34,139 nucleotides of DNA from Thermoanaerobacteraceae bacterium. Its GTDB lineage: Bacteria > Bacillota > Thermoanaerobacteria > Thermoanaerobacterales > UBA4877. Below are positions 3,409 through 34,139 of the stretch, piece after piece. The notes under the pieces were generated by a model. That model was given only the letters and a program-made list of their open reading frames with translations. It was not told the DNA's origin and searched no databases. The DNA lies in assembly GCA_030016635.1 (NCBI GenBank), contig JASEJQ010000022.1, forward strand, positions 1 to 34,139, given 5' to 3'. The position numbers and the translations under genes are program-made. The stretch's first letter is position 1, and the number at the start of each line of letters is the position of its first letter.

Positions 3409-4608
3409 TTAAATCAGAATATTCTCCTGTTCCAATCTTACCATTTTCTCTACCATATAGCCAATAACATTGTGAAAATCAGCGTAGTCCTCATCCTCAA
3501 GCAAAGCAGTAAGTTTCTTTCTATAGGCTTCATCTATTGGTTTTGTAAAATGCTCATACTCCTTTAATGTATCCACATCCATCATGTATGGCTTTATATC
3601 TATCCCTATTGCCTTCCTTAGGTGTACCAGTATCTCAAAACCACCGAGGTCAATATCGCCCCAGTGGTAGAATGACGCACCAGATGGCTTTAATTTATTT
3701 AGAAAATTTCTCTTAACCCTATCGCTGAATCCACCCAGATAGAGAATGAGAAAGCCCTTTGGCCTCTTTCTCACAAACTGCTGGTATACAGTAAGGTTTT
3801 CTATGGTAAGGACAGCCTTTGAAGCCATTTCCACAACCTGTAACTTTTCCACCATTTCACCGGGTATACCCACGTCTGGCACAAAACTTGATATATCAAT
3901 TATTCCCTCACCGCAGCTTATTTTAATATTGCCGCTCACATAGAGGTATCCAGGGTTATCCACCACCCCCACGAGGGTTAGGACATCCTTGGGGTTTAGT
4001 TCTTTAAGACCCATAAAGTCCTTCAATATCCTGACTACTTTGGACTCCACAGCCTCAAAGGCCTTGGTGTCTCCCAGCATTCTTCCGCTGAAAACCCTCT
4101 TTGGTATATCCTCCTTGAGTTTCATTATGGCATTTAAGGATTTGAATATAGCTATAGCCTCATCTGCATTATCCACATCGATGTATATGGGGCTTTTGCC
4201 CTCTATAATCCTGCTTCTGACAAACCTATAAAATGGAAGAATCTCATCCGTGGCCTGGCCGGAATACTCCTCGATAGCCTTAAGCATCTCTTCCTCCTTG
4301 GAATGTCTCGGCCTCCTCCCCAGAAACTCATATATCTCGTTCGCCTTTTCCACATTCAACGAGACCTTGTCTATGAGGCTGCCCTCATTGTGTTTTACCC
4401 AATGTATCCTGATATACCCCTTCTCTACTAAAAACCTCATCTCGCTGTTTATATCCAGCCTGTAGCTTGATGTGGTGTCGTCATAATACTGGGGCATGGT
4501 GTCAGGAGTAAACCTGAAGTATATGCCCCTCCTGCCCTCACCCCTGTATGTGCTGCTCCTTTCAAACCTATCTATGAGCTGGTTTAAAACCTTAGCTGCG
4601 TACCTCAT
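3409..4608 (-). CDS. jetD: Wadjet defence system nuclease subunit JetD
   Basis: JetD is the topoisomerase-VI/Toprim-like nuclease of Wadjet, which cleaves circular DNA that the JetABC motor has extruded. The 399-residue protein has an N-terminal DNA-binding region and a C-terminal Toprim (DUF2220-like) domain. The likely metal ligands are Glu270 in TIENLTVYQQF and the two aspartates of GDIDLGG (317-323). ATG 4608 is supported by GAGGG six bases upstream and lies inside the end of jetC (17-base overlap), so translation is probably coupled. Length and motif order are normal for the family. A GGCCWGGCC copy at 4252-4260 encodes Gly-Gln-Ala in a non-catalytic region. The subunit call is strong because of the complete jetABCD order around it. 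Confidence 0.9.
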   Translation of the reverse strand: MRYAAKVLNQLIDRFERSSTYRGEGRRGIYFRFTPDTMPQYYDDTTSSYRLDINSEMRFLVEKGYIRIHWVKHNEGSLIDKVSLNVEKANEIYEFLGRRPRHSKEEEMLKAIEEYSGQATDEILPFYRFVRSRIIEGKSPIYIDVDNADEAIAIFKSLNAIMKLKEDIPKRVFSGRMLGDTKAFEAVESKVVRILKDFMGLKELNPKDVLTLVGVVDNPGYLYVSGNIKISCGEGIIDISSFVPDVGIPGEMVEKLQVVEMASKAVLTIENLTVYQQFVRKRPKGFLILYLGGFSDRVKRNFLNKLKPSGASFYHWGDIDLGGFEILVHLRKAIGIDIKPYMMDVDTLKEYEHFTKPIDEAYRKKLTALLEDEDYADFHNVIGYMVEKMVRLEQENILI

Positions 4609-7600
4609 CCAAGTCCCTCTTTATATCAAAGTTATATGTCCAGGCCTTTGCACCTTCCCTCATTACAAGGATTGTAGTGTTCACATAGGGCCCTATATAC
4701 TCGCATTTTTCCGTAGGGGCAGCCAGTATCACCTGGAGACCGAGGCTGTTCATAAACGTGAGGGTGGCCTCAATCCTTTCGCTGTCCATCTTGTTGAACG
4801 CCTCATCAAAGAGCATCAGGCCGATTGAGTCAATCCAGTTCTTGCCCCTATACATCTGTAGAAAAGAGGCTGTCATCACCACATAGTACGGGGTCTGCGT
4901 CTCGCCGCCGGACTTTTCCCTGCTTACCTTTGAAAAGCTGGATACCTGGCCATCTGAATGCCTTATCTCTATGTCATAGGTGAGGTAGTTCCTGTAGTCA
5001 GTAAGCTCCGTCATTACCTTCTCAAACTCCTCTTCGCTGTCGGTGGTTATCCTCTCAAAGAGTTCATCCATAGCCTCCTTGTGCCTGGCCTCAAAGGCAC
5101 TGCTGAAGAGGGTAAACCCCTCCATGAGGAGCGGGTCCATTATCATGTCATAAAAGTTCTTATACTTTGGGTTTGGCCTTATCACAAACCTGTAGCTGTC
5201 GCCGCCAAACTCTAAGTCCCTCAGGGCATCATTCAGCATGTCAAACTCCATCTTAGCGCTCTCTATGTTTTCCTTCAGGGAAGCAATGAAGTGCTCCTTA
5301 AACTCCTCCTCGGCCTCTTTCCTTGCAAGCTCAATCTTCTCCTCAAACTCCTCCAACTGGCTCTCTTTGAGCTTCTTATGAAACTCCTCAAAGTCAGATA
5401 AATCCGTCGAATCTACCCTGCCCCAGAAGTTAAAGTCGCTGTTAAACCTCTGCATGGCAAGCTCTATGCTGCTCTTTTGATTGGCTATCTGAGTCTCCAA
5501 GCCCTTCCTGCTGGTCTCAAAGTTTTTGAGGACATCGGCTATATCCCTCTTTGATGTCTCCTCCTCATACCTCTTTGATGCCCATTCCTCTATGTCCACA
5601 TGCTCTGCTATGAATTTGTCAAGGTCTGCCTTTAATTCCTCTGATACCTCCGTCTCCCTCTCTATCCTGTCATTCAGGTTATTTATATCTGACTCGAGAC
5701 TGCCTTGTATGCGGCTGCCTTTAAAGAGTTCCTCATCCACACCAGCCTTTTCTTTTTCAACCGCAGTGAGTTTCTGCTGAATGGCCACATATTCCCTCAG
5801 GTCCAAGGAGGCCAGCTTGTCCTCCCTCTCCTTTATCTCAGCCTCTGTGGTTTCTGCCTCATCTATTATGTCGTTTATATCCCTTGCTGAGTAATAGAAG
5901 TCATCAAAAGGCTTCAGGAGTTCTTTCACATTGCCCAGCCTGTCTATCTCGCTGTTTATAAGGGCCTTCTCCTCCTGTACCTGTCTTAACTCCCTCTCCT
6001 TCATCTCCAGCTGCTTGGATGCGGCCTTGCTGCCTATGAAAGGTGTCTCATAAACAGTAAAGTTTATCTGTCTGGCCACACTGTTTTGGTATGTCATGCA
6101 GGTAGGTGTTATGGCCCTATCGTATCTGTTAAGCTCATCCACATTTTCACACTTCATGAGGCGGCCCATTATCCTGTTGACATAGGCTCTGGCATATTGG
6201 TTTTGTGTCTCTACCTCCTCGGCCAGTGAGCCTGCCTCCATCTGGTCTACATACTTTAAGACCCGTGTGGTGTCCACAAGGCCAACGCCAAATATGTTCT
6301 TTCCCTTTTTAACCCTATCATATATGTGGAGGGCTAAATTGAAGTGCTCCTCCGGGACAATGAGGTCAAACCTCTGGGTATTCAAATACCCCTCTATGGC
6401 ATCTCTCCACCTCTCATCTTTCACTTCTAAAAGCTCACAGAGTATATCGGGGATGCACTCTACACCCTTTTTCTCTTTAAGTCCTTCTGCAATAAGCTGT
6501 CGTAGAAGGGTGATGTTCTTGTCATACACCAACCTCTTATTCTTAAGGCTCTTTACGCTGTCTGTAAGCTCCCTCTCCTTTTCGGCCAGGCCCTCAAGCT
6601 CTGTCCCCAAGCTGTATATCCGATTTGAGAGCTCATCCGATTCCTTCCTTATCGTTTCATAGGCCAGGCCGAGGCTGTCTGTATCAATGTGGCCCTTATC
6701 CTTTATAAAGATATCCAGGTCATCTACGAATGAACCTATCTCCTTGAGATAGCCCTGGCCTGCTGCCTTTTTTAATTTTTCCGATACACCCTTGGCCATG
6801 GAGTGAACCTTATCTATCCTGAACCTATCCTCATTCAGCTTATTCTTAAGGAGTTTTATCTCCCTCTGGAGTTGACCCTGCATCCTGTAGTTCTCATTCT
6901 GGTTCAGCATATCCTTCAATGTATCATACTCTGTAGAGAGCTTTTCCTGCCGCTTTTTCAGCTTTTCAATCTTTTTCTCGATATCCTTAAGGTCTTTCTC
7001 ACTTTTCTTTTTCTCTTCTTTAAGTCCTTCCAGTCTGTTTCTTGAAATCTCATAGGATGCCCTCTTTATGATGTATTCCTGAGCATTCAGCCTTTCCTGA
7101 AGCCTCTTTAATTCACCGCCCATGGATATTATCTCATCCAGCCTTGCTATCTGAGTCCTTATGCCGGCTGCCATGGCCTCATATTCCTTATACTTCCTGA
7201 AGTTTTCCCTCATGGCGTCTATGGTAAGCTTCTTCTCGTCCAATACATACTGGTATACAAACTCCTTCAGGTCCTTTAAAGGCTTAAAGGCCAAGGCCCT
7301 CACCAGATTGTCAAAAAACCTCTCATTGAGCGAGCCCAGCTTTACCAGGAGGTCCTGCCTGTACTGGCCAGGCGTCTGGTATACCTTTGCGTTGTACTGT
7401 TTCAGATGGTCTCTCAGGTTCTTCCTATCCCTTGCTCTCTTGCCATCTAAAAACATATCCTCTCTTATTTCTGCATCCTCTATCTTAAAAAAGTCATTGT
7501 CAAAGGTATTATCCCTGTAGCAGTCTATGCATGAGCCAATTATGAAATACCTGTCCTTATTCTCATCATAAAACTCCAGGGCGATGATGCTGGAAAAATC

Positions 7601-7867
7601 CCCGTTCCTTAGGTACCTCTCCCCTTTTTCGTCCACCCCAGTCTTGCCCTTGACATAGTCAACGAGCGTCCTCTTGGACTCGTCATCGGCAGAATAGTTA
7701 AACTTTATCTGCCTCAAGTCCGCAACCAGTACGTACTGGATGGCATCCAGTATGGTGGACTTGCCGCTCCCGTTTTCCCCAGTGATAAGCGTACTGCCGT
7801 CAATATATATATCCACATTGTCAAAGTAGTGCCAGTTTATCAGTTTAACCCTGGTAAGCCTCTTCAA
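4592..7867 (-). CDS. jetC: Wadjet SMC/MukB-like ATPase JetC
   Basis: JetC is the SMC-like motor of Wadjet; ATP-driven loop extrusion lets the complex sense the topology and size of circular DNA. Counting from GTG 7876, the Walker A motif GENGSGKST is at 33-41, the ABC signature SGGETQ at about 989 and the Walker B motif LMLFDEAFNKMD at about 1020-1031. Between them lie two long heptad-rich coiled coils flanking a hinge region (roughly 480-620). The total of about 1,090 residues is normal. GTG 7876 has no spacing from the AAGGGG upstream, whereas TTG 7867 is six bases beyond GGGGGTG and gives the usual MKRLTRVKLINWHYF start, so I choose TTG. It overlaps jetB by 23 bases and jetD by 17. Two GGCCWGGCC copies lie in the coiled coil (6584, 6662). 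Confidence 0.93.
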   Translation of the reverse strand: MKRLTRVKLINWHYFDNVDIYIDGSTLITGENGSGKSTILDAIQYVLVADLRQIKFNYSADDESKRTLVDYVKGKTGVDEKGERYLRNGDFSSIIALEFYDENKDRYFIIGSCIDCYRDNTFDNDFFKIEDAEIREDMFLDGKRARDRKNLRDHLKQYNAKVYQTPGQYRQDLLVKLGSLNERFFDNLVRALAFKPLKDLKEFVYQYVLDEKKLTIDAMRENFRKYKEYEAMAAGIRTQIARLDEIISMGGELKRLQERLNAQEYIIKRASYEISRNRLEGLKEEKKKSEKDLKDIEKKIEKLKKRQEKLSTEYDTLKDMLNQNENYRMQGQLQREIKLLKNKLNEDRFRIDKVHSMAKGVSEKLKKAAGQGYLKEIGSFVDDLDIFIKDKGHIDTDSLGLAYETIRKESDELSNRIYSLGTELEGLAEKERELTDSVKSLKNKRLVYDKNITLLRQLIAEGLKEKKGVECIPDILCELLEVKDERWRDAIEGYLNTQRFDLIVPEEHFNLALHIYDRVKKGKNIFGVGLVDTTRVLKYVDQMEAGSLAEEVETQNQYARAYVNRIMGRLMKCENVDELNRYDRAITPTCMTYQNSVARQINFTVYETPFIGSKAASKQLEMKERELRQVQEEKALINSEIDRLGNVKELLKPFDDFYYSARDINDIIDEAETTEAEIKEREDKLASLDLREYVAIQQKLTAVEKEKAGVDEELFKGSRIQGSLESDINNLNDRIERETEVSEELKADLDKFIAEHVDIEEWASKRYEEETSKRDIADVLKNFETSRKGLETQIANQKSSIELAMQRFNSDFNFWGRVDSTDLSDFEEFHKKLKESQLEEFEEKIELARKEAEEEFKEHFIASLKENIESAKMEFDMLNDALRDLEFGGDSYRFVIRPNPKYKNFYDMIMDPLLMEGFTLFSSAFEARHKEAMDELFERITTDSEEEFEKVMTELTDYRNYLTYDIEIRHSDGQVSSFSKVSREKSGGETQTPYYVVMTASFLQMYRGKNWIDSIGLMLFDEAFNKMDSERIEATLTFMNSLGLQVILAAPTEKCEYIGPYVNTTILVMREGAKAWTYNFDIKRDLDEVRS

Positions 7868-8456
7868 TGGTTTCACCCCCTTCTCTCTGGTATGAGGAGA
7901 TCCTATCGTAGACCGCCTTTATATCCTCAGCCCTCACTGCAGACAATATGGAGGGATAAACAATCAACCTGCACTCGGGGTCAAATATATCCTGGTCTAA
8001 ATTATCAATGATATTGAATCTCTTAAAGATTGAAACGGCATCCCTGAGGTTTGCCTTGTTTATGGGCCTGTCCTTCAGCCCGAGGCCCATATACCTCTCC
8101 TGCACCTCGCCTATGGTGATGACCACGTTCTGGGCCAGGCTTATCTCCCTCCGCTTCTCCTCATAGATGAGCCTGAGTATCAGCAGGATGATACTTTCAT
8201 CCAGAGTGAGGTTCACATGGTTATACCCAAACCTGTTTCTCACATAGTACACATAGTTGTTTTCATCAGACATCAGTTCCCAGCCGCCCATCATGAGGTA
8301 TTCGGATATACCCCTCTCGTTTCTCTCTATGAAGTAATAGTCCCTCCTGTCCTCATCGGACCTCTTATTGATATAGCAAGCTGAAAGGAGTTTATTCACC
8401 ACGCGGGTAAACGTGTTCTTCTCCTCCTGGCTCATCTCCTTGTACCATTCAAACAT
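7845..8456 (-). CDS. jetB: Wadjet subunit JetB (MukE/MksE-like, DUF4194-type)
   Basis: This winged-helix accessory protein of about 203 residues bridges the JetC motor and the JetA kleisin, as MukE does in MukBEF. It is rich in basic and aromatic residues and shows the VNKLLSACYINKRSD start and a winged-helix-like middle with LDESIILLILRLIYEEKR. The identification leans on position and length as much as on sequence. A GTG at 8462 is in frame, but ATG 8456 has AAGGAGG at an 8-base distance and is preferred. The ribosome binding site is itself embedded in the last codons of jetA (the Arg-Arg-Leu end). The 3' end overlaps the jetC start, so the operon is tightly coupled. Confidence 0.85.
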   Translation of the reverse strand: MFEWYKEMSQEEKNTFTRVVNKLLSACYINKRSDEDRRDYYFIERNERGISEYLMMGGWELMSDENNYVYYVRNRFGYNHVNLTLDESIILLILRLIYEEKRREISLAQNVVITIGEVQERYMGLGLKDRPINKANLRDAVSIFKRFNIIDNLDQDIFDPECRLIVYPSILSAVRAEDIKAVYDRISSYQREGGETIEEAYQG

Positions 8457-8458
8457 AA

Positions 8459-9862
8459 TCACAACCTCCTTATGATGGCTTCAGGGAATGAAAACATCTC
8501 GCCCTCCACCCTTTCATCAAGTATATCCACCCTGTACCCAACCCTCTTTGACTGAGAAAAGGCAAAAATGTATATAAGCCGGATAAAGTCCTCCACACTT
8601 TTTATATCCATCTCCGAAGCCCTTATGCTTGCCCTTTCCTTTAACACATCCATGACAAAGGCATTCACCCTGTCTCTGGTAAGACTCTTTTGCATCTTTT
8701 CTTTAATGGAGATAACCTTTTCGTTCTTTAGTGCCTCATCCAATTCAAAGCCCTCAATGACTTCAAATTGAGGTACCCTAATAGTCTTCCTTGGCTTATA
8801 TAGTGAGGAGTCATCTATATATCCCTGAGAATATATGGAATGTACGGCATCTATCTCCTCAGGCGGTGGGTCTTTAAAGTTCACGTCATTTCCCTTTATA
8901 TATCCTGAGAGCCAGGCCAGGACCTCAGCCAGTTGCCCCCTGGTATCCCTGTTGGAGTAGAGTGCATGGCGCACCTGGTTTAACGAGGCTCTGGTGTACT
9001 GGGCATTCCTCTTGTCTATCTCCTCCATCAGCCTCCCCATGTCCCTGTAGCCTTCCTGGATAAAATTCAGGGTCTTTATTATCCCTTCCTTTGCATCATC
9101 TATGCTTTTATATCTTTCCCTCTCCACCATGCCCTTAGCTATCCTGTCGAGGAGTTTATTATTCCTCTCCCAGTCGCTTATCTTCCTCAATATCCTGACA
9201 CGGTACTTGGATACATTGTCCGAGGTCTTGAGCCTGTGATAGCTCTTATCTATGACCTCACTCTTATAGTCTATGAAATGGCTGCTTAATACCTCACTTG
9301 CTTCTTTTTCCTCCAGTATCCTCTCTGTGTATGTCTTAATGCTGGAATAGAGCGACTTGAGGTTATTGATGAGACTGTACGTAGAATCGTAAACCTTCTC
9401 TAAGATAATGTCAGGATGCTTATCCGCACCTTCCGAATAGAGGTTATTGTACGTATCAAAGACGTAGCCCTGAAACTCTTCCTCATAACCATCCCGTATC
9501 TTTTTGAGCACATCCAATATCTTAATGGCATAATCAGTGAGGTTTACATACTGAGTGTAGTCCGTAAACGTCTCTATCTCTATCCATCCCGTATCCTCAA
9601 GCTTGCGAAGGACCATGCTGGCCCTGTCTCTGGGACTTTGAGCGGCCTCCCCAATATCCTCCATAAGCTCAGTATCCAGTGAATCGCTCTCTACTTCCTC
9701 TATGTAAGAGGTTATTATCCTAACACAGTCCTCCCGCTTTACACCCATGGCAGAGATTGAATATTCATCATATATAAAAAAAAGGATATCCGAATAGAAC
9801 TCCTTAAGCGGACTGGAAAGAATACTGAAAAACCTGTCCGGTATCCTCGAAAAAAGATTCAT
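8459..9862 (-). CDS. jetA: Wadjet kleisin-like subunit JetA
   Basis: JetA is the MukF/kleisin-like subunit that closes the SMC ring in the Wadjet complex. The 467-residue protein opens with NLFSRIPDRFFSILSSP, a pattern I associate with the JetA family often called DUF5716 in Clostridia, rather than with the DUF3375 JetA of type I systems. An N-terminal winged-helix region (about 1-115) is followed by long helices, then a C-terminal domain with a DEALKNEKVISIKEKMQKS segment. ATG 9862 follows AGGAGTGATTTC. It is the first gene of jetABCD. The system subtype (I recall DUF5716 JetA as type III) is from memory and untested. Confidence 0.85.
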   Translation of the reverse strand: MNLFSRIPDRFFSILSSPLKEFYSDILFFIYDEYSISAMGVKREDCVRIITSYIEEVESDSLDTELMEDIGEAAQSPRDRASMVLRKLEDTGWIEIETFTDYTQYVNLTDYAIKILDVLKKIRDGYEEEFQGYVFDTYNNLYSEGADKHPDIILEKVYDSTYSLINNLKSLYSSIKTYTERILEEKEASEVLSSHFIDYKSEVIDKSYHRLKTSDNVSKYRVRILRKISDWERNNKLLDRIAKGMVERERYKSIDDAKEGIIKTLNFIQEGYRDMGRLMEEIDKRNAQYTRASLNQVRHALYSNRDTRGQLAEVLAWLSGYIKGNDVNFKDPPPEEIDAVHSIYSQGYIDDSSLYKPRKTIRVPQFEVIEGFELDEALKNEKVISIKEKMQKSLTRDRVNAFVMDVLKERASIRASEMDIKSVEDFIRLIYIFAFSQSKRVGYRVDILDERVEGEMFSFPEAIIRRL

Positions 9863-25411: not shown

Positions 25412-25780
25412 TCATTGACCTTTAAGCATAACGCTTTTAGATAATTGATAAATAATATACTGGTTCAAACTTACTTTCTCCATAGCGGCCCTTTCACTCA
25501 AAACTTTATGCAGACTCTTTGGAATTCTGACAACAAACTTGCCTGAATATTCTTCTCCTACGGGTTCAGGTATTTTCTCACTGTTTTCAAGAGCATCTTC
25601 TATCCAGCATCTTTTTGCATCCTCCAGCATTGTATAGACTTCTTCGATTGTGTCAGCCTGAGTTATGCATCCTGGCAGTTCTACTATCCTCGCAGCAAAG
25701 CCGCCTTCCGGACTTGGTTTTATTTCTATGGTGTATGGTAGTTTCATATAATAATCCATGTCTTTATTCAAACTCGTCAT
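25412..25780 (-). CDS. HicB-like antitoxin with C-terminal ribbon-helix-helix domain
   Basis: Residues about 12-65 show the HicB partial RNase-H fold: MKLPYTIEIKPSPEGGFAAR, IVELPGCITQADTIEEVYTM. The C-terminus FVVRIPKSLHKVLSERAAME, then VSLNQYIIYQLS, is a ribbon-helix-helix DNA-binding domain. This pairing is typical of HicB antitoxins, which neutralise HicA mRNA interferases and repress their operon. No hicA gene is found on either side: upstream there is a short interrupted frame, downstream the panC leader. It is therefore an orphan. The start is uncertain (ATG 25780, a TTG at 25771 or ATG 25759 or 25747). A good -35/-10 pair lies upstream. Confidence 0.75.
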   Translation of the reverse strand: MTSLNKDMDYYMKLPYTIEIKPSPEGGFAARIVELPGCITQADTIEEVYTMLEDAKRCWIEDALENSEKIPEPVGEEYSGKFVVRIPKSLHKVLSERAAMEKVSLNQYIIYQLSKSVMLKGQ

Positions 25781-25916: not shown

Positions 25917-27212
25917 TCATTCTTCTCCCAACAATTTCCTACCTTTATTGTAGAACTCGTCCATAAGGTCTTCAGGTACAAATATCCCCCCTGTAGCCCA
26001 TGCCATATGTATACCTTTCCCCCTTATACCCAGAAGACCGGCTGCAGCCGAGGGCTCTACCTTTATTCCCTCCTTATCCTTTAATATGGCCAGCATTCTG
26101 TAGAGGTCATCGTCATTTACTGTAAATATGCCGCCTACAAGCCTTTCTACTATCCTGCCGGCGAATTTAGATGGCCTGCCTACGGCCAGGCCATCGGCCT
26201 CCGTCCTGCCATCCAGACCAAAGTCAAATACACTCACCCTGTCATGCAGGCCAGTCATAAGTCCTAAAAGCATACATGGAGAATGGCTGGGCTCTGCAAA
26301 ATAACATCTTACATTGTCACCGAACACATGCTTCAGGCCGAAGGTTATGCCTCCCGGTGCCCCACCCACACCGCAGGGTATATACACGTTTATCGGGTTA
26401 TCTTCCGATATATTTATACCCATGTCATCCAACTGTTTTTTTAGCCTCAGTGCGGCAACACTGTAGCCGAGGAATAGGTCCTTTGAGTTTTCATCATCTA
26501 CAAAATAGTCCATAGGATTTTGAGAGGATAACCTCCTGCCCTCCTCCACTGCCTTAGAGTAGTCTGATGTATACTCTATTACATTTACACCTCTCTCCCT
26601 CAAGAGCCTCTTCTTCCACTCCTTTGCATCTGCAGACATATGTACTGTCACTTTGAACCCTAAGGCAGAGCCCATTATACCTATGCTGAGTCCCAGGTTA
26701 CCCGTAGAACCAACAGATATTGAGTAGTTACTAAAAAATTCTCTGAATTTCGGTCCAGACATAATGGAGTAGTCATCTGTAATATTTAGCAGGCCATTGT
26801 TTATTACCAGTTCTTCTGCATGTTTTAAGACCTCATAGACCCCTCCCCTGGCCTTTACCGACCCGGCCACAGGAAGCTCATTGTCGCATTTAAGATACAG
26901 CGGCCCCTCAAAAGCCTCTCCAAATCTTTTCTTTAATTCCTTAGCAACATCAGATATCTCTACCAGTCTTGACTCAATTATGCCATCCTCCACCTTCGGA
27001 AAGAGTTTCTTAATAAGCGAAGCAAACCTTTTCCATCGTGCCTCAGCATCAAGTATATCATCAAATGTCAGAGGTAAATTAGGTAATATTTCTTTTGCCA
27101 TGCCAACCTCTGGATTTTTCCAAAAGACCGGCTTACAATGGGTTACATCCTTTAAGAGTGGGTATTCATTTAACCATGTCTCCATTGGTTTCCCAAGGAC
27201 TATGTTATTCAT
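25917..27212 (-). CDS. dsdA: D-serine dehydratase (D-serine ammonia-lyase)
   Basis: This PLP enzyme converts D-serine to pyruvate and ammonia. The 431-residue protein is of normal length. It shows LPVAGSVKARGGVYEV with the PLP-binding Lys120, the phosphate-binding SVGSTGNLGLSIG, the VKVEPSAAAG-like end (GIKVEPSAAAGLLG) and the N-terminal VTHCKPVFWKNP typical of DsdA. GGAAGGAG precedes ATG 27212. It is a single-gene unit: it follows the terminator of the hydantoin operon and has its own promoter. One GGCCWGGCC copy is at 26184. In context it could handle D-amino acids, but no direct link to the hydantoin operon is shown. Confidence 0.93.
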   Translation of the reverse strand: MNNIVLGKPMETWLNEYPLLKDVTHCKPVFWKNPEVGMAKEILPNLPLTFDDILDAEARWKRFASLIKKLFPKVEDGIIESRLVEISDVAKELKKRFGEAFEGPLYLKCDNELPVAGSVKARGGVYEVLKHAEELVINNGLLNITDDYSIMSGPKFREFFSNYSISVGSTGNLGLSIGIMGSALGFKVTVHMSADAKEWKKRLLRERGVNVIEYTSDYSKAVEEGRRLSSQNPMDYFVDDENSKDLFLGYSVAALRLKKQLDDMGINISEDNPINVYIPCGVGGAPGGITFGLKHVFGDNVRCYFAEPSHSPCMLLGLMTGLHDRVSVFDFGLDGRTEADGLAVGRPSKFAGRIVERLVGGIFTVNDDDLYRMLAILKDKEGIKVEPSAAAGLLGIRGKGIHMAWATGGIFVPEDLMDEFYNKGRKLLGEE

Positions 27213-27510: not shown

Positions 27511-28236
27511 TTAATCCCACCATTTACGTACCTTCTCTGGTGGCTTCATATACGTGAGCCTGCTGTGTTTCACACCCATTAATATATATGCCTCTAACAT
27601 TTTTAAAGCGGCAAAGGCCGGGTCAATAACCGGTACGTCATAGCCTGCCTCTTTTAGCCGATTTTGAAGTGATCTGGCCAGGCCTACCATGCCTGTACAG
27701 CCCAGTATAATCACGTGTACATCATCTTCTTTTATAGCATTAACACTTTCATCATATAAGGCATTCTCTAACTTGCTTCTATCACCCAGCTCTAATACGG
27801 GTATATTTACATACCTTATGGACTTTAGTCTATCCTCAAGCCCCATCCTCATTATGGAGTCTTCCAGCATGGGCAAAACATTGGGTAGGACAGTAACAAT
27901 GCCCAAGTGTTGTCCCAAACCCGCTGCCAGGAGTATAGATGGTTCAAATCCACCAACGACAGGTATATCCACAATTTCTCTTGCAGCCTTAACCCCAGGG
28001 TCACCAAAGCAGTCACTTATAACCCCATCAAAGCCCTCTTCCTCGGCCTTCTTCACCTTTCTTAATATATCAGGTACAGCAAGGGCCTCATCATATTCGC
28101 ACTCTATAGATGCAGGACCATAGTCAAGATTTTCTGTCTCGATTTCTACTCCTTCTGACGCAAATCCTTTAAATTCTCTCACAGTATCTTCATTGAGTGC
28201 CTTTGATATAATTGGTATTATGACCTTTATCTTCAT
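27511..28236 (-). CDS. Aspartate/glutamate/hydantoin racemase family protein
   Basis: The 241-residue cytosolic protein has the two-cysteine acid/base pair of the Asp/Glu/hydantoin racemase family: Cys76 in ISDCFGDPGV and Cys180 in ILGCTGMVGL. The N-terminus MKIKVIIPIISKALNEDT and the late VIDPAFAALKMLEAYI are those of the hydantoin racemase branch. It probably interconverts the enantiomers of a 5-substituted hydantoin or related amide before ring opening by the other operon products. AAAGGAGTGAAATT precedes ATG 28236, and a hairpin lies in the 80-base gap upstream. It is the last gene of the operon. One GGCCWGGCC copy is at 27676. Confidence 0.85.
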   Translation of the reverse strand: MKIKVIIPIISKALNEDTVREFKGFASEGVEIETENLDYGPASIECEYDEALAVPDILRKVKKAEEEGFDGVISDCFGDPGVKAAREIVDIPVVGGFEPSILLAAGLGQHLGIVTVLPNVLPMLEDSIMRMGLEDRLKSIRYVNIPVLELGDRSKLENALYDESVNAIKEDDVHVIILGCTGMVGLARSLQNRLKEAGYDVPVIDPAFAALKMLEAYILMGVKHSRLTYMKPPEKVRKWWD

Positions 28237-28316: not shown

Positions 28317-29870
28317 TTAACCTGCAAGATTTCCGGCAGCCTTTATTTTTATCCTGGTGGCATTGCCGGGTAGATACGCCAGCGGTATGTCCTCTCTTTC
28401 TACTATTTCTATAGTATCTCTTTGAGCACCTGCTTTTACGCATTCCTCTATAGCCATCTCTTCAGCCTGCCTCAATGCCTCGGCCCTGCTCATGCCATCC
28501 AAAGAGAATATCCTATCTATCTCTGCACCGACCTGCGCTATGGCTACCCCTATGGCATTGGCAACCTCATAATGCTGAGGCCTTATTACCTCGCTGCATC
28601 CTTTCAATGTCTCCGGCAATAGTACGCTACCTCCACCTACCAGTATGAGAGGTATATCACCAGCTGTCGTCTTTATCTTATCTATATTGTCTTCAACCAT
28701 TTCTTTTATTTTATATAAAGCTTTTTCAACCAGGCCTTTATCCAGTCCTTTTACTTTCTCGGGATTACCCATTACGGCCAGGCCGCCTGCCACGGCCACA
28801 TCAGACGCAGTCAGTGTGGACCCGCCAAAGACAAGTCCCTTTTCTTCCAGCTTGTAACCTACGCTGTCAGGACCCACTGTCACTATATCGTCCTTTTCCC
28901 TTACAATGCTACCGCCACCCAATCCAATGGATATGAGATCTGGCATACGGAAATTAGTCCTCACTCCACCAATCTCCACAGCCATGGCAGACTGTCTTGG
29001 AAAGCCATTCACCAAAACTCCTATATCCGACGTAGTACCTCCCACATCTACCACTACAGCATTTTTTGCCCTTGAGAGATATGCTGCCCCTCTCAAGCTA
29101 TTAGTAGGCCCACTGGCTATTGTCATTATAGGGTATCTCATGGCATATTCTACCGACATTAAGGTCCCATCGTTTTGGGCTAGATATAAGACTGCTTCAA
29201 TCCCCTTTTTCTTTAAAGCTTCCTGAAATCCACTGGCCAGCTTTTTAATCACCCCGGCCAAAGCGGCATTTAGTATGGTCGCATTCTCTCTTTCGATAAG
29301 GCCGATGCTTCCTATTTCATGGGAAACAGAAATATCAACCCTGTCCCCCAATCTTTCCTTAAATATCTCTGCCACTTTGTCTTCGTGCTCTGTGTTAACC
29401 GGAGAGAACACCGATGTTATTGCAATTGCATCAAAATCCCCGTCTATCTCTTCAGCTATCTTATCTATTTCATCATAGTCAAGCCCATACAGTTCCTCGC
29501 CGTTAAACTCATATCCGCCACTAATTATATAGTATTTCCTGCCTATGGCATCAATTAGGTCTTGAGGCCACCCCACCATTGGTTTTATGGCCATGGTAGC
29601 AGGTTTACCTATTCTAACTACTGCTACTCTTCTAAGTCCCTTCCTCTCTACTATGGCATTGGTACAGTGGGTTGTGCCCAACATAACATAATTTATATCC
29701 TTTGTATCAATATTTTTCTGGATTAATACCTTATTCAACGAATTATATATCCCTGAGGTTACATCCTCAGTAGTTGGAGATTTGGCTTTAGCAACAACAT
29801 TGTTATTTTCGTCCAGTATCACGGCATCTGTATTTGTGCCTCCTACATCTATCCCAATCCTGTAGTTCAT
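28317..29870 (-). CDS. Hydantoinase/oxoprolinase HyuA-like protein
   Basis: The 517-residue ASKHA-type protein shows the phosphate loops RIGIDVGGTNTDAVILDENN (4-23) and AVVVDVGGTTSDIGVLVNG (about 270), plus GLGGGSIV and VGGGSVLLPETL near the C-terminus. Proteins of this type form the ATP-dependent A subunit that opens hydantoins or 5-oxoproline. The classical partner HyuB (about 550 residues) is absent from the operon, and the usual long A subunit (about 650-700) is shorter here. This form therefore resembles the stand-alone HyuA-like proteins that travel with DUF917. The start overlaps the DUF917 stop (ATGA). The exact substrate is unknown. Confidence 0.8.
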   Translation of the reverse strand: MNYRIGIDVGGTNTDAVILDENNNVVAKAKSPTTEDVTSGIYNSLNKVLIQKNIDTKDINYVMLGTTHCTNAIVERKGLRRVAVVRIGKPATMAIKPMVGWPQDLIDAIGRKYYIISGGYEFNGEELYGLDYDEIDKIAEEIDGDFDAIAITSVFSPVNTEHEDKVAEIFKERLGDRVDISVSHEIGSIGLIERENATILNAALAGVIKKLASGFQEALKKKGIEAVLYLAQNDGTLMSVEYAMRYPIMTIASGPTNSLRGAAYLSRAKNAVVVDVGGTTSDIGVLVNGFPRQSAMAVEIGGVRTNFRMPDLISIGLGGGSIVREKDDIVTVGPDSVGYKLEEKGLVFGGSTLTASDVAVAGGLAVMGNPEKVKGLDKGLVEKALYKIKEMVEDNIDKIKTTAGDIPLILVGGGSVLLPETLKGCSEVIRPQHYEVANAIGVAIAQVGAEIDRIFSLDGMSRAEALRQAEEMAIEECVKAGAQRDTIEIVEREDIPLAYLPGNATRIKIKAAGNLAG

Positions 29871-30961
29871 TTAGAAGCCACCCCCTCATAGCGTTCCTCA
29901 ATAGGTACATAGTCAATATCATATCCGAAATATCTAGGCCCTACCAATTTTAAGCCTTCCTCTGTCCTCCACTGCTCGTTACATGGTATACCTATAACTA
30001 TACCTCTATAACCGTACTTTAACATCTCTGTGGTTATCGGTTTACCTGTGTCCGGGTCTAATACCGATATTAGGTCAGGAACTGAAGCCACAACGTTGTC
30101 ATCTACCCGTGCCACCAGATTTTCATTCTGAAATTCTATTTCCAGCTTTTTCCCTTTATACTCATCTATTCCATCAAAGAATGCATTGCCCCTCGCAAAA
30201 CCACCCATTGTCCGCCTTTGCACATCCGTAATCTTGCCCTTAAAGAGGAGATAACCATGGGTAATCTCCAGTATCTTATCTAAAGGGTTCTCATTTCTTA
30301 AACCTGCTTCTCTTATGGCCTTACCTATGGACTCGGCCAGTGTCATTGTACCCCTTACTGCCCCCTCTTTTAATTGTTTCCCCAGCATTGGATAAATAGC
30401 AATCATGGAACTGCCACCCATTTCTACAGTTGCTGTTCTGGCAAGTCTTTCAGACCATTTATTGGTTATAGTCTGGAGGAGCATCTTATTGCCCTTTTCG
30501 TCGCTAATACTCATAGGGGTGGAAGAGATGCCATGAAGTGTAAAAGTCACCATCTGCAGTTCAGGGAAAGCCCTGCCCATACCGTCGGCATCCACTACTG
30601 GAAGGTTAAGTCTTGCAGCTAAGGCAAGGGGTATCATTGAATTTAATCCACCTGCCTCTATGGAAATAGTGGCATAAATATCTTTACCAAGGTAATTCTT
30701 TAAAAGCTCAAAAGCCCAGAATGGTTCCTCCCCATTAGGTATTTTTTCAACCAGCACCGTCGGTGCCCCCATCATAGCAGATGGGACCACCAGGGCATTA
30801 TCCGGCACCTCATCTACATCTATTAATGTTACAGGTCCGTAGTCCTCTATGGCCTGCAGGGCCATTAATTTACCCACATAGGGGTCTCCTCCACCACCGG
30901 TACCCAGAATAGGTGCAGCAGTGGCAATGTCTTCTATTGCCTGTGCATTCAGTTTACGCAT
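29867..30961 (-). CDS. DUF917 family protein (S-methyl-thiohydantoin desulfurase-type)
   Basis: The 364-residue protein has the DUF917 opening: IATAAPILGTGGGGDPYVGK. Next come ALVVPSAMMGAPTVLVEKIP, LPVVDADGMGRAFPELQMVT and the C-terminal DLISVLDPDTGKPITTE. I recall the family's newer name as S-methyl-thiohydantoin desulfurase-like, from memory. It regularly occurs with HyuA-like proteins and NCS1 permeases. It should act in the cytosol on a hydantoin-related compound. An earlier in-frame ATG exists at 30991, but AAAAGGAGG lies six bases before ATG 30961, and the upstream permease ends at 30975. The true start is therefore 30961. Confidence 0.82.
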   Translation of the reverse strand: MRKLNAQAIEDIATAAPILGTGGGGDPYVGKLMALQAIEDYGPVTLIDVDEVPDNALVVPSAMMGAPTVLVEKIPNGEEPFWAFELLKNYLGKDIYATISIEAGGLNSMIPLALAARLNLPVVDADGMGRAFPELQMVTFTLHGISSTPMSISDEKGNKMLLQTITNKWSERLARTATVEMGGSSMIAIYPMLGKQLKEGAVRGTMTLAESIGKAIREAGLRNENPLDKILEITHGYLLFKGKITDVQRRTMGGFARGNAFFDGIDEYKGKKLEIEFQNENLVARVDDNVVASVPDLISVLDPDTGKPITTEMLKYGYRGIVIGIPCNEQWRTEEGLKLVGPRYFGYDIDYVPIEERYEGVASK

Positions 30962-30974
30962 AATTGTCCTCCTT

Positions 30975-32240
30975 TTACTTTTTTTCTTCATCCAAAGCAG
31001 TGGCTGGTTTTAATACATAATACAATACCAAATAGCATACCATTGAAGATATTATGCCATTTATGGCTGAAATACCCATCTTCATAAACAATGCAGCGGT
31101 AAAGCCTATAACCCACGATGCTATTCCTATCCAGTTGATGTCTGCCACACCGGCTCCCCACATATCCTTGTTTCCTCTTTTGCATATCCAATAATCGGCA
31201 ATCATACTGCCGGCAATAGGTGGTATGCCTGCAGTAAGCACAGTAAGGAAAGAAGTAAAATAGTTCAGTATGCCCATGACGGCAAGGACAGTACCTATGG
31301 CACCGGCTATACAGGTCATAAGTGGTCTGAGTTTATCCTCCATGTTAAAAAGACTTACAATGGCCAGGCCACCTGAATAGGCATTTACAGTATTCGTGGT
31401 CCATGTAGCTAAAATCAAGATTACAGAACCCACAAAACCCATCCCCAATTGAGCTAAGGCAATTGTTATGTCAAAGGTACCGGCTACTACAGTGAGGAGT
31501 GATCCAACTACAAGTAGAAACATCCCCGCTGGCCAGACACCCACAAGTCCTGATATCGTAGCATCATTTCTACTTTTTGCATACCTTGAAAAGTCAGCGG
31601 CAATGACACCTCCTACTGCAAACCCTCCCACGGCCAGGCCGATAGAATAACTCCAGGAGTAATGTTCTTTTGGCACATAATTTATTATATTATCCACTCC
31701 AAATTTTTTAAGAACAAGTATAAGACCTGCTACTGAAAGTACTATAAGAGCTGGTATGGCAATATAATTTAAGTATTCCAGTGCCCTATAGCCATATACA
31801 GCAGTCATTAGCATAATAATACCCCATACCAGTCCGCTTAACCATACAGGTATATTAACCCCAAGCCACATGTTCATTATTTGAGAAAATGCAGCTCCAC
31901 ACACACTCGCCTGTACTCCAAACCATCCTATACAGGATATTGCAAGGATAGTAGAGATTACAAATCGTGCCCCCTGCCTGCCAAAAGCCGATGAGGATGT
32001 AACCACAGTGGGAACACCTAAGTCGGCACCCTCCATCCCCTGAAATGTCATAAATACGACTATTATTGTATAGCCTATAGCTCCAGCAATTATAGCCTCT
32101 AATAGTGGCATGCCCTGAACTATCACACCCCCTACCATCAAAGATGGTACACATATCATTGCTCCCGCCCATACAAGGGCTATACTATACCATGGCCTCC
32201 TTTCTGACTCTGGAATTGGATCCAATGCATGCTGTTCCAT
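30975..32240 (-). CDS. NCS1-family cytosine/purine/hydantoin-type permease
   Basis: A membrane transporter of about 421 residues with 11-12 hydrophobic segments. It shows the NCS1 hallmark regions WAGAMICVPSLMVGGVIVQG, VTSSSAFGRQGARFVIS, FAVGGVIAADFSRYAKSRND and PPIAGSMIADYWICKRGNKD. NCS1 proteins carry cytosine, purines, allantoin, thiamine or hydantoins (Mhp1) with Na+ or H+. Given the downstream genes, hydantoin uptake is a fair inference. ATG 32258 is in frame, but ATG 32240 has GAGGGGAG at proper spacing and gives MEQHALDPIP, so I choose it. It is the first gene of the sigma-54 operon. Two GGCCWGGCC copies lie inside (31362, 31632). Confidence 0.87.
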   Translation of the reverse strand: MEQHALDPIPESERRPWYSIALVWAGAMICVPSLMVGGVIVQGMPLLEAIIAGAIGYTIIVVFMTFQGMEGADLGVPTVVTSSSAFGRQGARFVISTILAISCIGWFGVQASVCGAAFSQIMNMWLGVNIPVWLSGLVWGIIMLMTAVYGYRALEYLNYIAIPALIVLSVAGLILVLKKFGVDNIINYVPKEHYSWSYSIGLAVGGFAVGGVIAADFSRYAKSRNDATISGLVGVWPAGMFLLVVGSLLTVVAGTFDITIALAQLGMGFVGSVILILATWTTNTVNAYSGGLAIVSLFNMEDKLRPLMTCIAGAIGTVLAVMGILNYFTSFLTVLTAGIPPIAGSMIADYWICKRGNKDMWGAGVADINWIGIASWVIGFTAALFMKMGISAINGIISSMVCYLVLYYVLKPATALDEEKK

Positions 32241-32283
32241 AATAACGACTCCCCTCATATATTATTTTTTAGCAGATATCCTT

Positions 32284-32300
32284 AGCAAAAATCGTGCCAA
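32284..32300 (-). promoter_or_regulatory. Sigma-54 (-24/-12) promoter of the hydantoin operon
   Basis: The minus strand reads TTGGCACGATTTTTGCT. The GG at -24 (32297-32298) and the GC at -12 (32285-32286) are separated by 10 bases, as required, and nearly every consensus base (TGGCACG-n4-TTGCT) matches. Transcription should begin near 32273. It lies between the sigma-54 activator gene and the permease. Confidence 0.9.
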
Positions 32301-32386: not shown

Positions 32387-34139
32387 CTAAATAACATTAT
32401 TTATTCCATGATTTATATTATTTTCTGTCATATATTTCTTAATCCATCTATAGAGTGTAGCACGACTTATACCTAAATAATTAGCAATCTGTTCTTTATT
32501 TTGATACCCAAATATGTTTATTGCCTTCAGAAGCCTGTCTCTCTCCTTAGTTTCTGTATCTTTAATATCAGATGACATACCTTGATTTAAATTCAAAAAA
32601 GCATGTGGGAGAGACTCCTTTGTAATGTATTTGCTGTTCTCCATCACCACTGCATACTGGATGGCATTCTGGAGTTCTCTTATGTTGCCTGGATAACTAT
32701 ACCGCATAATCACTTCCATGACATCTTCTTTAAAACCCATGATCTTTTTATTTAATTTATTACAGTAGTATCTTAAAAAATAGTCAGCCAGCATCTTTAT
32801 ATCTTCTTTCCTTTCACGAAGAGTAGGGAGGTAAAGCTGAGAGACACCTATCCTGTAGTAAAGGTCAGCCCTGAACTCCCCTGAAGCTATCATCGCCTCT
32901 ATATTTTTGTTAGTGGCAGATATTATTCTCACGTCCAGCCTCACAGGTTTGATATCGCCAAGCCTTGTAACGCTTTTGTCTTCCAGAACCCTCAAGAGCT
33001 TTGCCTGAAGGTGTAAAGGCATGTCTCCTATCTCATCTAAAAAAATAGTGCCTCCATCAGCCAGTTCAAACTTACCTGGTTTACCGCCCCTTTTGCCGCC
33101 TGTGAAAGCACCTTCTGCATATCCAAATAGTTCACTTTCTAAAAGGGTCTCTGGTATTGCAGCACAATTAATTGGAATAAAAGGCTTTCCCCTCCTTGGA
33201 CTGTTATTATGGATAGAACGAGCAAACATTTCTTTACCGGTTCCGCTCTCTCCTCTAATCATCACATTCAAATCGGATATAGCAAGCTTTTTTGCCTTTA
33301 TTATAGCCTCATTTATAACGGCACTTTTCCCAACAATATCATCAAAGTCATAGTCCTCATTGTCTCCTATATAATTTTTGGTTACTCTATGGGCTTCTAT
33401 AATATCCTGGAAAGTCACAACTCCACCTGCACATTTATCTCCACTTAAAAATGGTGTTATGTCCGCTACAAAAGTCTCTCCATTGTTTCCAAAAAGCTTG
33501 TAACTTTTAAAGCTGCATCCATCCTGCATAACTTCTTTCAATGGGAAATTCTCAAAAATTTCATTTATATTATGTTTGCACATAAAATTAATTTTTAATA
33601 AAGACTCCGCCCTGCTGTTGACATGTATTATATTGCCCTCTTTATCAAATGCGACTATCCCCGAGTCTATAGATTGGATTATGCCATTTAGTTGGGTATT
33701 TAAATCCTCAATTTTATTTATCATGTGGGATTCATTTATTTTTGAAGTTATATAATCTACTAGTTTTTCCATAAGAAGGGTAAGTTTTTTCTGTTCTATA
33801 ATAGCATACAGCTTTTGTTTTCTGGTAAATGCCACAAGAAATATAACTCCTTCTGTCCTTCCTCTGTAGCTTATTGGATAGCCAATTACCGCTTCAAGGT
33901 GGCATAAAACCTTCGATGGACACATATTACAAAGTTCAAAAAACATCGGATCATCTACAACAATTTTTTCATTTTCTTTAATGACAAAATTTCCTAAGAG
34001 TGAATCTTTTGCAATCTTACCTATGTAGAACTTATAGTCATTGGTAGCCGTAATAACTTCCATGTTACTATCAATTATGAAAATATCAAGATTGACATTG
34101 TATGAAAGGACATCACAGAACTGCTCAAGGTCGTCCTTC
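32387..34139 (-). CDS. Sigma-54-dependent transcriptional activator with PAS domain (5' end outside the window)
   Basis: This enhancer-binding protein very likely activates the -24/-12 promoter next door. Counting from the in-frame ATG at 34063, a sensory region with CNMC and a nearby Cys54 (45-54) is followed by a PAS domain (about 125-225). The AAA+ core has Walker A GESGTGKE (271-278), the sigma-54-contacting GAFTGG (318-323) and Walker B GGTIFLDEIG (337-346). A Fis-type helix-turn-helix ends the protein (NKEQIANYLGISRATLYRWI). The frame stays open from 34063 to the right edge, reading for example LEQFCDVLSYNVNLDIFIID, so the true start lies beyond the window and 34063 is not the start. 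The inducer is not known. Confidence 0.92.
   Translation of the reverse strand, partial: KDDLEQFCDVLSYNVNLDIFIIDSNMEVITATNDYKFYIGKIAKDSLLGNFVIKENEKIVVDDPMFFELCNMCPSKVLCHLEAVIGYPISYRGRTEGVIFLVAFTRKQKLYAIIEQKKLTLLMEKLVDYITSKINESHMINKIEDLNTQLNGIIQSIDSGIVAFDKEGNIIHVNSRAESLLKINFMCKHNINEIFENFPLKEVMQDGCSFKSYKLFGNNGETFVADITPFLSGDKCAGGVVTFQDIIEAHRVTKNYIGDNEDYDFDDIVGKSAVINEAIIKAKKLAISDLNVMIRGESGTGKEMFARSIHNNSPRRGKPFIPINCAAIPETLLESELFGYAEGAFTGGKRGGKPGKFELADGGTIFLDEIGDMPLHLQAKLLRVLEDKSVTRLGDIKPVRLDVRIISATNKNIEAMIASGEFRADLYYRIGVSQLYLPTLRERKEDIKMLADYFLRYYCNKLNKKIMGFKEDVMEVIMRYSYPGNIRELQNAIQYAVVMENSKYITKESLPHAFLNLNQGMSSDIKDTETKERDRLLKAINIFGYQNKEQIANYLGISRATLYRWIKKYMTENNINHGINNVI

Follow-up and report, generated by a model that had tools for sequence, protein, structure and literature searches.

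The present work analyzes a stretch of 34,139 nucleotides (the window) from a Thermoanaerobacteraceae bacterium (GenBank assembly GCA_030016635.1, contig JASEJQ010000022.1), in which the gene of a DUF917 protein is followed by that of a short HyuA-like protein. The two proteins probably form a heteromeric ATP-dependent hydrolase of hydantoin-like cyclic amides, whereby HyuA would phosphorylate the substrate and DUF917 would open its ring. Classical enzymes of this kind are composed of HyuA and HyuB (PMC5214803), and in the mechanism assumed for them the amide carbonyl is activated by the kinase subunit and then opened by the second subunit (PMC5214803 and PMC8453981). The families themselves and similar annotated pairs are already known, the new element being the proposed role of DUF917 in the place of HyuB. 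No description of HyuA working with DUF917 in this manner was found in the literature searched, the coverage of which mostly excludes subscription papers.

Pairing of short HyuA with DUF917

The pair is encoded by the following features of the window:

29867-30961, minus strand: DUF917 (S-Me-THD-like; PF06032 and PF20906), the proposed ring-opening partner replacing HyuB
28317-29870, minus strand: short HyuA-like ASKHA kinase subunit of 517 residues (PF05378 and the N-terminal part of PF01968, without PF19278), proposed to phosphorylate the cyclic amide
29867-29870, minus strand: ATGA overlap of the DUF917 stop and the HyuA start, read from the sequence as translational coupling

The open reading frames, the sequence and the Pfam matches confirmed the initial annotation in its description of a 517-residue HyuA-like protein with ATGA coupling to DUF917. 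The latter comprises 364 residues from the ATG at 30961, just 5' of which lies a GGAGGA Shine-Dalgarno sequence; a longer open reading frame, to 30991, arises from an upstream in-frame start. DUF917 matches PF06032 (1.7e-59) and PF20906 (1.8e-74), formerly DUF917 and now termed S-Me-THD-like, and HyuA matches PF05378 over its full length (8.2e-43) and PF01968 (1.9e-36) at positions 1-171 of 291 only. The phosphate-1 motif of HyuA, DVGGTNTD, occupies residues 8-15, and its phosphate-2 motif, DVGGT, residues 275-279. The strong family matches of both proteins, together with an adjacency that recurs across five phyla, indicate that the pair is not due to chance.

The pair had also been described as lacking HyuB, a claim against which a homologue elsewhere in the genome would have spoken; a search of the whole genome of the window (2.35 Mb in 114 contigs, 100% complete) gave no match to HyuB (PF02538). 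This genome contains a single HyuA, that of the window, and two copies of DUF917, the second of which is located on contig C92 without HyuA. The second copy (G000 contig C92; L002, L114) is clustered with racemase-like, OPT-type transporter, M29-like peptidase, DUF1177, AroM and PucR-type genes.

The genome survey proposed in the initial annotation was conducted; in one part of it, a profile built from short HyuA only was run on 398 genomes of the phylum. The scores fell into two clear groups, with at least 289 bits at 39 places, in 35 genomes, and at most 222 for all others listed. All 35 genomes have DUF917 within 4 kb of short HyuA, and HyuB is absent from 24. Of these 35 genomes, 27 were already known to carry DUF917 nearby (in G070 on the opposite strand), and 18 of them are without HyuB; the other eight were newly found from short HyuA alone and then searched, whereupon DUF917 was seen to adjoin HyuA in all eight and HyuB to be absent from six. 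Pairing with DUF917 is obligatory for short HyuA in this set, but it is not obligatory for DUF917.

DUF917 itself occurs in 45 of 249 genomes of the phylum, at 77 places. The same 45 genomes contain 72 HyuA places (nine of 81 rows were left out, seven as second pieces of the same frame and two as falling under the cut-off), which have within 4 kb DUF917 only (27), both DUF917 and HyuB (3), HyuB only (12) or neither (30). All 12 HyuA accompanied by HyuB only are, by profile coverage, of the long, full-profile type, one being cut by a contig end. Three loci (L099, L106 and L107) have both systems in one operon, the long HyuA with HyuB and the short HyuA with DUF917. Gene order is free, with 46 DUF917-HyuA and 33 HyuA-DUF917 combinations, and the gaps are mostly -23 to +50 bases.

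Among 39 named loci found via DUF917, HyuA is nearby in 34, and the remaining five start at a contig end. HyuB was sought in 30 named genomes with a DUF917 match (31 of these 39 loci, less L010); it is absent from five and present somewhere in the genome in 25, and its absence is thus no universal rule. In the Pseudomonadota, DUF917 matches were found in 21 of 299 genomes, at 25 places. Of these, 23 were examined, merged into 20 regions; the two left out were the sub-threshold G362 and G278 (the latter equal to L041). HyuA is adjacent in 10 of the 11 regions with strong-class DUF917, the exception (L134) being a truncated DUF917, and in none of the nine with divergent-class DUF917. HyuB is absent from five of the 10 Pseudomonadota genomes with the pair.

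Short HyuA might conceivably work with a HyuB encoded elsewhere, DUF917 being a mere neighbor. This would accord with the composition of the classical enzymes (PMC5214803) and with the 25 named genomes in which HyuB does occur. Yet HyuB is missing from the genome of the window, from 24 of the 35 phylum genomes with short HyuA and from five of the 10 Pseudomonadota genomes with the pair, and every HyuB of the 45 DUF917 genomes has its own HyuA within 700 bases, apart from a split HyuB in G070. Whole-genome searches led to the rejection of this explanation, which is refuted for the genomes without HyuB and retains almost no probability in general.

Co-evolution and predicted association

The two proteins also co-evolve. 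With one pair taken per permease, pairwise distances across 39 loci gave r = 0.969 for DUF917-HyuA, compared with 0.734 for DUF917-permease and 0.725 for HyuA-permease, and the partial correlation of DUF917-HyuA given the permease was 0.935, although part of the correlation between the two is shared inheritance of adjacent genes. Dereplication to 34 loci left the three pairwise values at 0.961, 0.731 and 0.713, respectively.

At locus L090 the DUF917 and HyuA genes share a reading frame and are separated by just one stop, and their products are identical to those of the window at 232 of 360 and 318 of 515 residues. AlphaFold2 modeled this pair as one chain of 882 residues with a mean predicted local distance difference test (pLDDT) of 90.7 and a predicted template-modeling score (pTM) of 0.84, the linker being of low confidence. 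A control, in which the HyuA of L088 was joined to the racemase encoded by the next gene by reading through the stop, gave 85.9 and 0.62. For rigid domains without defined placement, a pTM of about 0.57-0.64 (pair) or 0.64-0.71 (control) would be expected, and the value of 0.84 implies, by our estimate, that the error across the domains averages about 6 to 7 angstroms. A complex of DUF917 and HyuA is likely. This was the complex prediction advocated in the initial annotation, and it favors a defined interface between the two proteins; along with the absence of HyuB and the pairing in 35 of 35 genomes, it lends support to the suggestion made there that DUF917 is the partner of HyuA in the stead of HyuB.

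The same results bear on the alternative that the two are separate, co-transcribed enzymes which form no complex, DUF917 acting on a hydantoin-like ring and HyuA phosphorylating another intermediate. The many DUF917 genes without HyuA (42 of 77 places in the phylum set) would be expected in that case, as would the thiohydantoin desulfurases of the family (L140 and L141), which have no HyuA beside them. On the other hand, short HyuA is never found without DUF917 nearby in the phylum set, its co-evolution with DUF917 is closer than that of the permease, and the predicted pair exceeds the racemase control in pTM. Separate enzymes are hence improbable.

Features of the two proteins

The HyuA proteins linked to DUF917 measure 511-559 residues in 75 of 77 cases and those linked to HyuB 677-709 residues in 12 of 13, the exceptions being shorter pieces. 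Trees were built from 97 HyuA rows of at least 440 residues and 147 DUF917 rows of at least 320, shorter pieces having been dropped. One branch of the HyuA tree, with a support of 100, separates the 13 HyuB-type and six partnerless rows from all the rest, including all DUF917-linked rows. A clade of exactly the 76 rows labeled as DUF917-linked was rejected by the approximately unbiased test (p-AU 1e-7), since two rows that are labeled otherwise fall inside it: in L113 DUF917 lies on the opposite strand, and in L099 the HyuA has both DUF917 and HyuB as neighbors. A third class of HyuA, of about 565 residues, is present in L119, L120 and L121, with neither HyuB nor DUF917 beside it and with a conserved cluster of its own.

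The short HyuA shares with the HyuA-HyuB hydantoinases, 5-oxoprolinases and caprolactamase (CapAB) the ASKHA kinase domains and the phosphate motifs, both of which are kept, nearly invariant, in 77 short HyuA. Unlike in those enzymes, HyuB is missing from the pair and HyuA is without the C-terminal barrel, PF19278 and the PGP adenosine motif (GxxPGP). PF19278 is present in the HyuB-linked HyuA of L148 and absent from that of the window, and PGP occurs in 13 of 13 HyuB-linked but two of 77 DUF917-linked proteins. The HyuA of the L090 model aligns to residues 6-612 of CapA (6yra_A; Z 29.0) and stops before the C-terminal barrel, which spans residues 623-696 (PMC8453981). A practical rule of annotation may follow, whereby a HyuA of about 515 residues without PF19278 is assigned a DUF917 partner rather than considered half of a HyuAB enzyme. 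The notion that short HyuA has lost elements for docking HyuB was dropped: a 23-column gap before the GGG strand could not be assigned to helix N of CapA as opposed to the helix preceding it, and the position of the omega loop (CapA 553-560) is still present. The YLPGN signature at this position occurs in 41 of 77 short HyuA and is thus not universal.

HyuA could also be an activase, which would remodel or reactivate DUF917 in the manner of other ASKHA reactivases rather than phosphorylate a substrate. Weak Pfam matches of the window HyuA to the MutL and BadF/BadG families are in line with such a role, as are structural matches to dehydratase activators and a corrinoid activator. However, the structures most similar to it belong to the HyuA-type subunits of lactamases and carboxylases (Z 18.8-29.9 across some 500 residues), and DUF917 lacks a conserved His or Cys pointing to a cofactor in need of reactivation. 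An activase is very improbable.

DUF917 shows no sequence homology to HyuB, having no match to PF02538 and a probability of 0.2% in profile comparison. The DUF917 half of the L090 model matches 2o3i (Z 40.1), which belongs to the same family and is uncharacterised, and most of the structural matches listed cover the HyuA half only; no HyuB subunit was among the best 50 Foldseek rows or the VIA-align rows listed, which is no proof of a different fold. Eight residues (E72, E102, N107, D126, R130, N279, E280 and D296) are invariant in all 85 DUF917 proteins adjacent to HyuA.

Relatives of DUF917 with a named function are the thiohydantoin and S-methyl thiohydantoin desulfurases, which take part in ergothioneine breakdown and are ATP-free. 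They share PF06032 and PF20906 with the window DUF917, and the fold in the L090 model is that of 2o3i, but the window protein scores 98.8 and 100 bits against the desulfurase profiles NF058529 and NF058532, for which the cut-offs are 440 and 450. The proteins of L140 and L141 do exceed the cut-off of NF058529 for thiohydantoin desulfurases; the 13-kb region of each locus is devoid of HyuA, and A or P, Q, V and T stand in place of E72, E102, D126 and E134 of the HyuA-linked class. By analogy with these relatives, the DUF917 fold itself is suggested to be an enzyme acting on a hydantoin-like ring. A 2024 paper on cyclodipeptide oxidase likewise suggested that DUF917 proteins, found with hydantoin racemases, are hydantoinases (PMC11055893), and HyuA is not discussed in the available parts of that paper.

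Proposed reaction, operon context and regulation

The neighbors of the pair may bear on its substrate and control:

27511-28236, minus strand: racemase of the Asp/Glu/hydantoin family (PF01177, 4.6e-43)
30975-32258, minus strand: permease of the NCS1 type resembling CodB/Mhp1, which probably imports the cyclic substrate (Pfam Transp_cyt_pur, 4.4e-31)
32284-32299, minus strand: sigma-54 (-24/-12) promoter, TGGCACGATTTTTGCT, 5' of the permease gene (exact consensus match)
32387-34063, minus strand: PAS-containing sigma-54 enhancer-binding activator, PrdR-like, the probable regulator of the operon (Pfam Sigma54_activat, 4.3e-69; PAS_8; HTH_8)

The core order permease-DUF917-HyuA, often with the racemase, recurs in relatives, and the racemase lies directly 3' of a HyuA in L003-L006, L038, L088-L091, L093 and L113. 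In the PDB, the racemase is closest to hydantoin and allantoin racemases (3qvj, 5.4e-34; the allantoin racemase 5lfd, 2.4e-26), and the best match of the permease is a cytosine permease (7qoa, 1.1e-36), with the hydantoin permease Mhp1 at 2e-17. The better ribosome-binding site of the permease is at an internal ATG, at about 32240. Hydantoin salvage clusters of the Mhp1/HyuE type combine an NCS1 permease and a hydantoin racemase with ATP-independent hydantoinases and carbamoylases; the permease and racemase are in common with the window operon, and neither an ATP-independent hydantoinase nor a carbamoylase was seen among the annotated neighbors in the window.

In the proposed reaction, the permease would import a hydantoin-like cyclic amide, which the racemase would racemise. 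HyuA would phosphorylate the amide carbonyl as its iminol and hand the activated ring to DUF917, standing in HyuB's place, which in turn would add water by means of a Glu/Asp/Arg/Asn site. HyuB instead employs an Asp-His-Asp-His metal site, these being the metal ligands in CapB (PMC8453981). The likeness of the racemase and permease favors hydantoins or allantoin over diketopiperazines as substrate, and cyclic dipeptides are made possible by the M19, M24 and M29 peptidases near some pairs; M19 adjoins HyuA in five Bacillus-type loci, and M24 and M29 lie near some others. In the Bacillus-type loci (L003-L006 and L038), one racemase and permease are surrounded by two DUF917-HyuA pairs that differ in subtype, with the M19 dipeptidase after them.

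A complex may also use the phosphate otherwise, for carboxylation, dehydration, desulfurisation or C-N bond formation in place of ring-opening hydrolysis. HyuA-type kinases do drive carboxylation in the acetone and acetophenone carboxylases (PMC5214803), where phosphorylation by a HyuA-like kinase subunit is believed to prepare the substrate for a second subunit; the latter is HyuB-like and is accompanied by further subunits, none of which is present here. The named relatives of DUF917 are desulfurases. On the other hand, neighbors resembling hydantoin or allantoin racemases and permeases fit the catabolism of hydantoin-type compounds, and peptidases M19 and M24 beside the pair in some loci fit amide or peptide products. 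Such non-hydrolytic chemistry is rather unlikely.

Several points weigh against the ring-opening hydrolase, all support for which is computational. As opposed to the 35 of the 77 DUF917 places in the phylum set that have HyuA within 4 kb, the other 42 do not, so that DUF917 can evidently work alone. No natural DUF917-HyuA fusion was met, the longest frames with a DUF917 match being of 471 residues in the phylum set and 709 in the Pseudomonadota. In fungi, there may be proteins in which HyuA domains are fused to DUF917. The AlphaFold2 test of the pair was a single one, on a chain read through a stop codon and with a mostly unpaired alignment (three of 76 rows paired); its one negative control had an alignment of lesser depth (40 rows), and association was judged from pTM and pLDDT alone. 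In the 85 aligned HyuA-adjacent DUF917 proteins, no His or Cys is conserved that could form a metal site like that of HyuB. Finally, several loci have one HyuA with two to four copies of DUF917, most of which keep the conserved residues, an arrangement that a simple 1:1 enzyme leaves unexplained.

The last arrangement, of tandem DUF917 copies, is found in Chloroflexota and actinobacterial loci (L007-L009, L011, L013, L014, L020 and L025; L011 starts at a contig end, and its HyuA was not seen). One kinase may serve several DUF917 partners, or DUF917 may form hetero-oligomers. A broader proposal, which we hold tentatively and at somewhat less than even chances, is that of a second class of ATP-dependent cyclic-amide hydrolases, assembled independently and extending over five or more bacterial phyla. 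The HyuA kinase would have recruited DUF917 as an unrelated hydrolytic partner, with a carboxylate/arginine site replacing the HyuB metal site, and a single kinase would in some lineages serve several DUF917 proteins as exchangeable substrate modules.

If the pair is indeed a ring-opening hydrolase, HyuA would be a portable activation module, which evolution has plugged into two unrelated second subunits. Such pairs, annotated only as "DUF917" and "hydantoinase", as in Clostridioides difficile, where a permease, DUF917 and a hydantoinase are on consecutive locus tags (PMC12915319), would then code for one coherent enzyme, the reaction of which can be tested. About 9% of the phylum genomes sampled (35 of 398) carry the module, those of gut bacteria among them, and it would thus bear on nitrogen metabolism there.

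Control of the operon by sigma-54 is probable, as judged from sequence. The promoter TGGCACGATTTTTGCT lies between the activator and permease genes and is the sole exact match among 40 sites in the window with zero to two mismatches. A scan of both strands in 15 related loci that have an activator of this kind (259,556 bases) gave 13 exact sites, each no more than 420 bases from the activator gene. The activator of the window scores 430 bits against the NCBIfam PrdR profile, under the cut-off of 795. In L087-L092, L094 and L113 a second DUF917 lies beyond the sigma-54 activator and diverges from the main operon, and in L089, L092 and L113 it is accompanied by a second HyuA-like gene.

A D-serine ammonia-lyase is encoded at 25917-27212 (minus strand), about 300 bases 3' of the racemase; it was not seen beside the module in relatives and is therefore kept out of it. 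Elsewhere in the window are a HicB-family antitoxin-like gene (25412-25780, minus strand) and a complete Wadjet (type I) defence operon, JetA-JetB-JetC-JetD (3409-9862, minus strand), with best PADLOC scores of 478, 228, 1173 and 416 bits.

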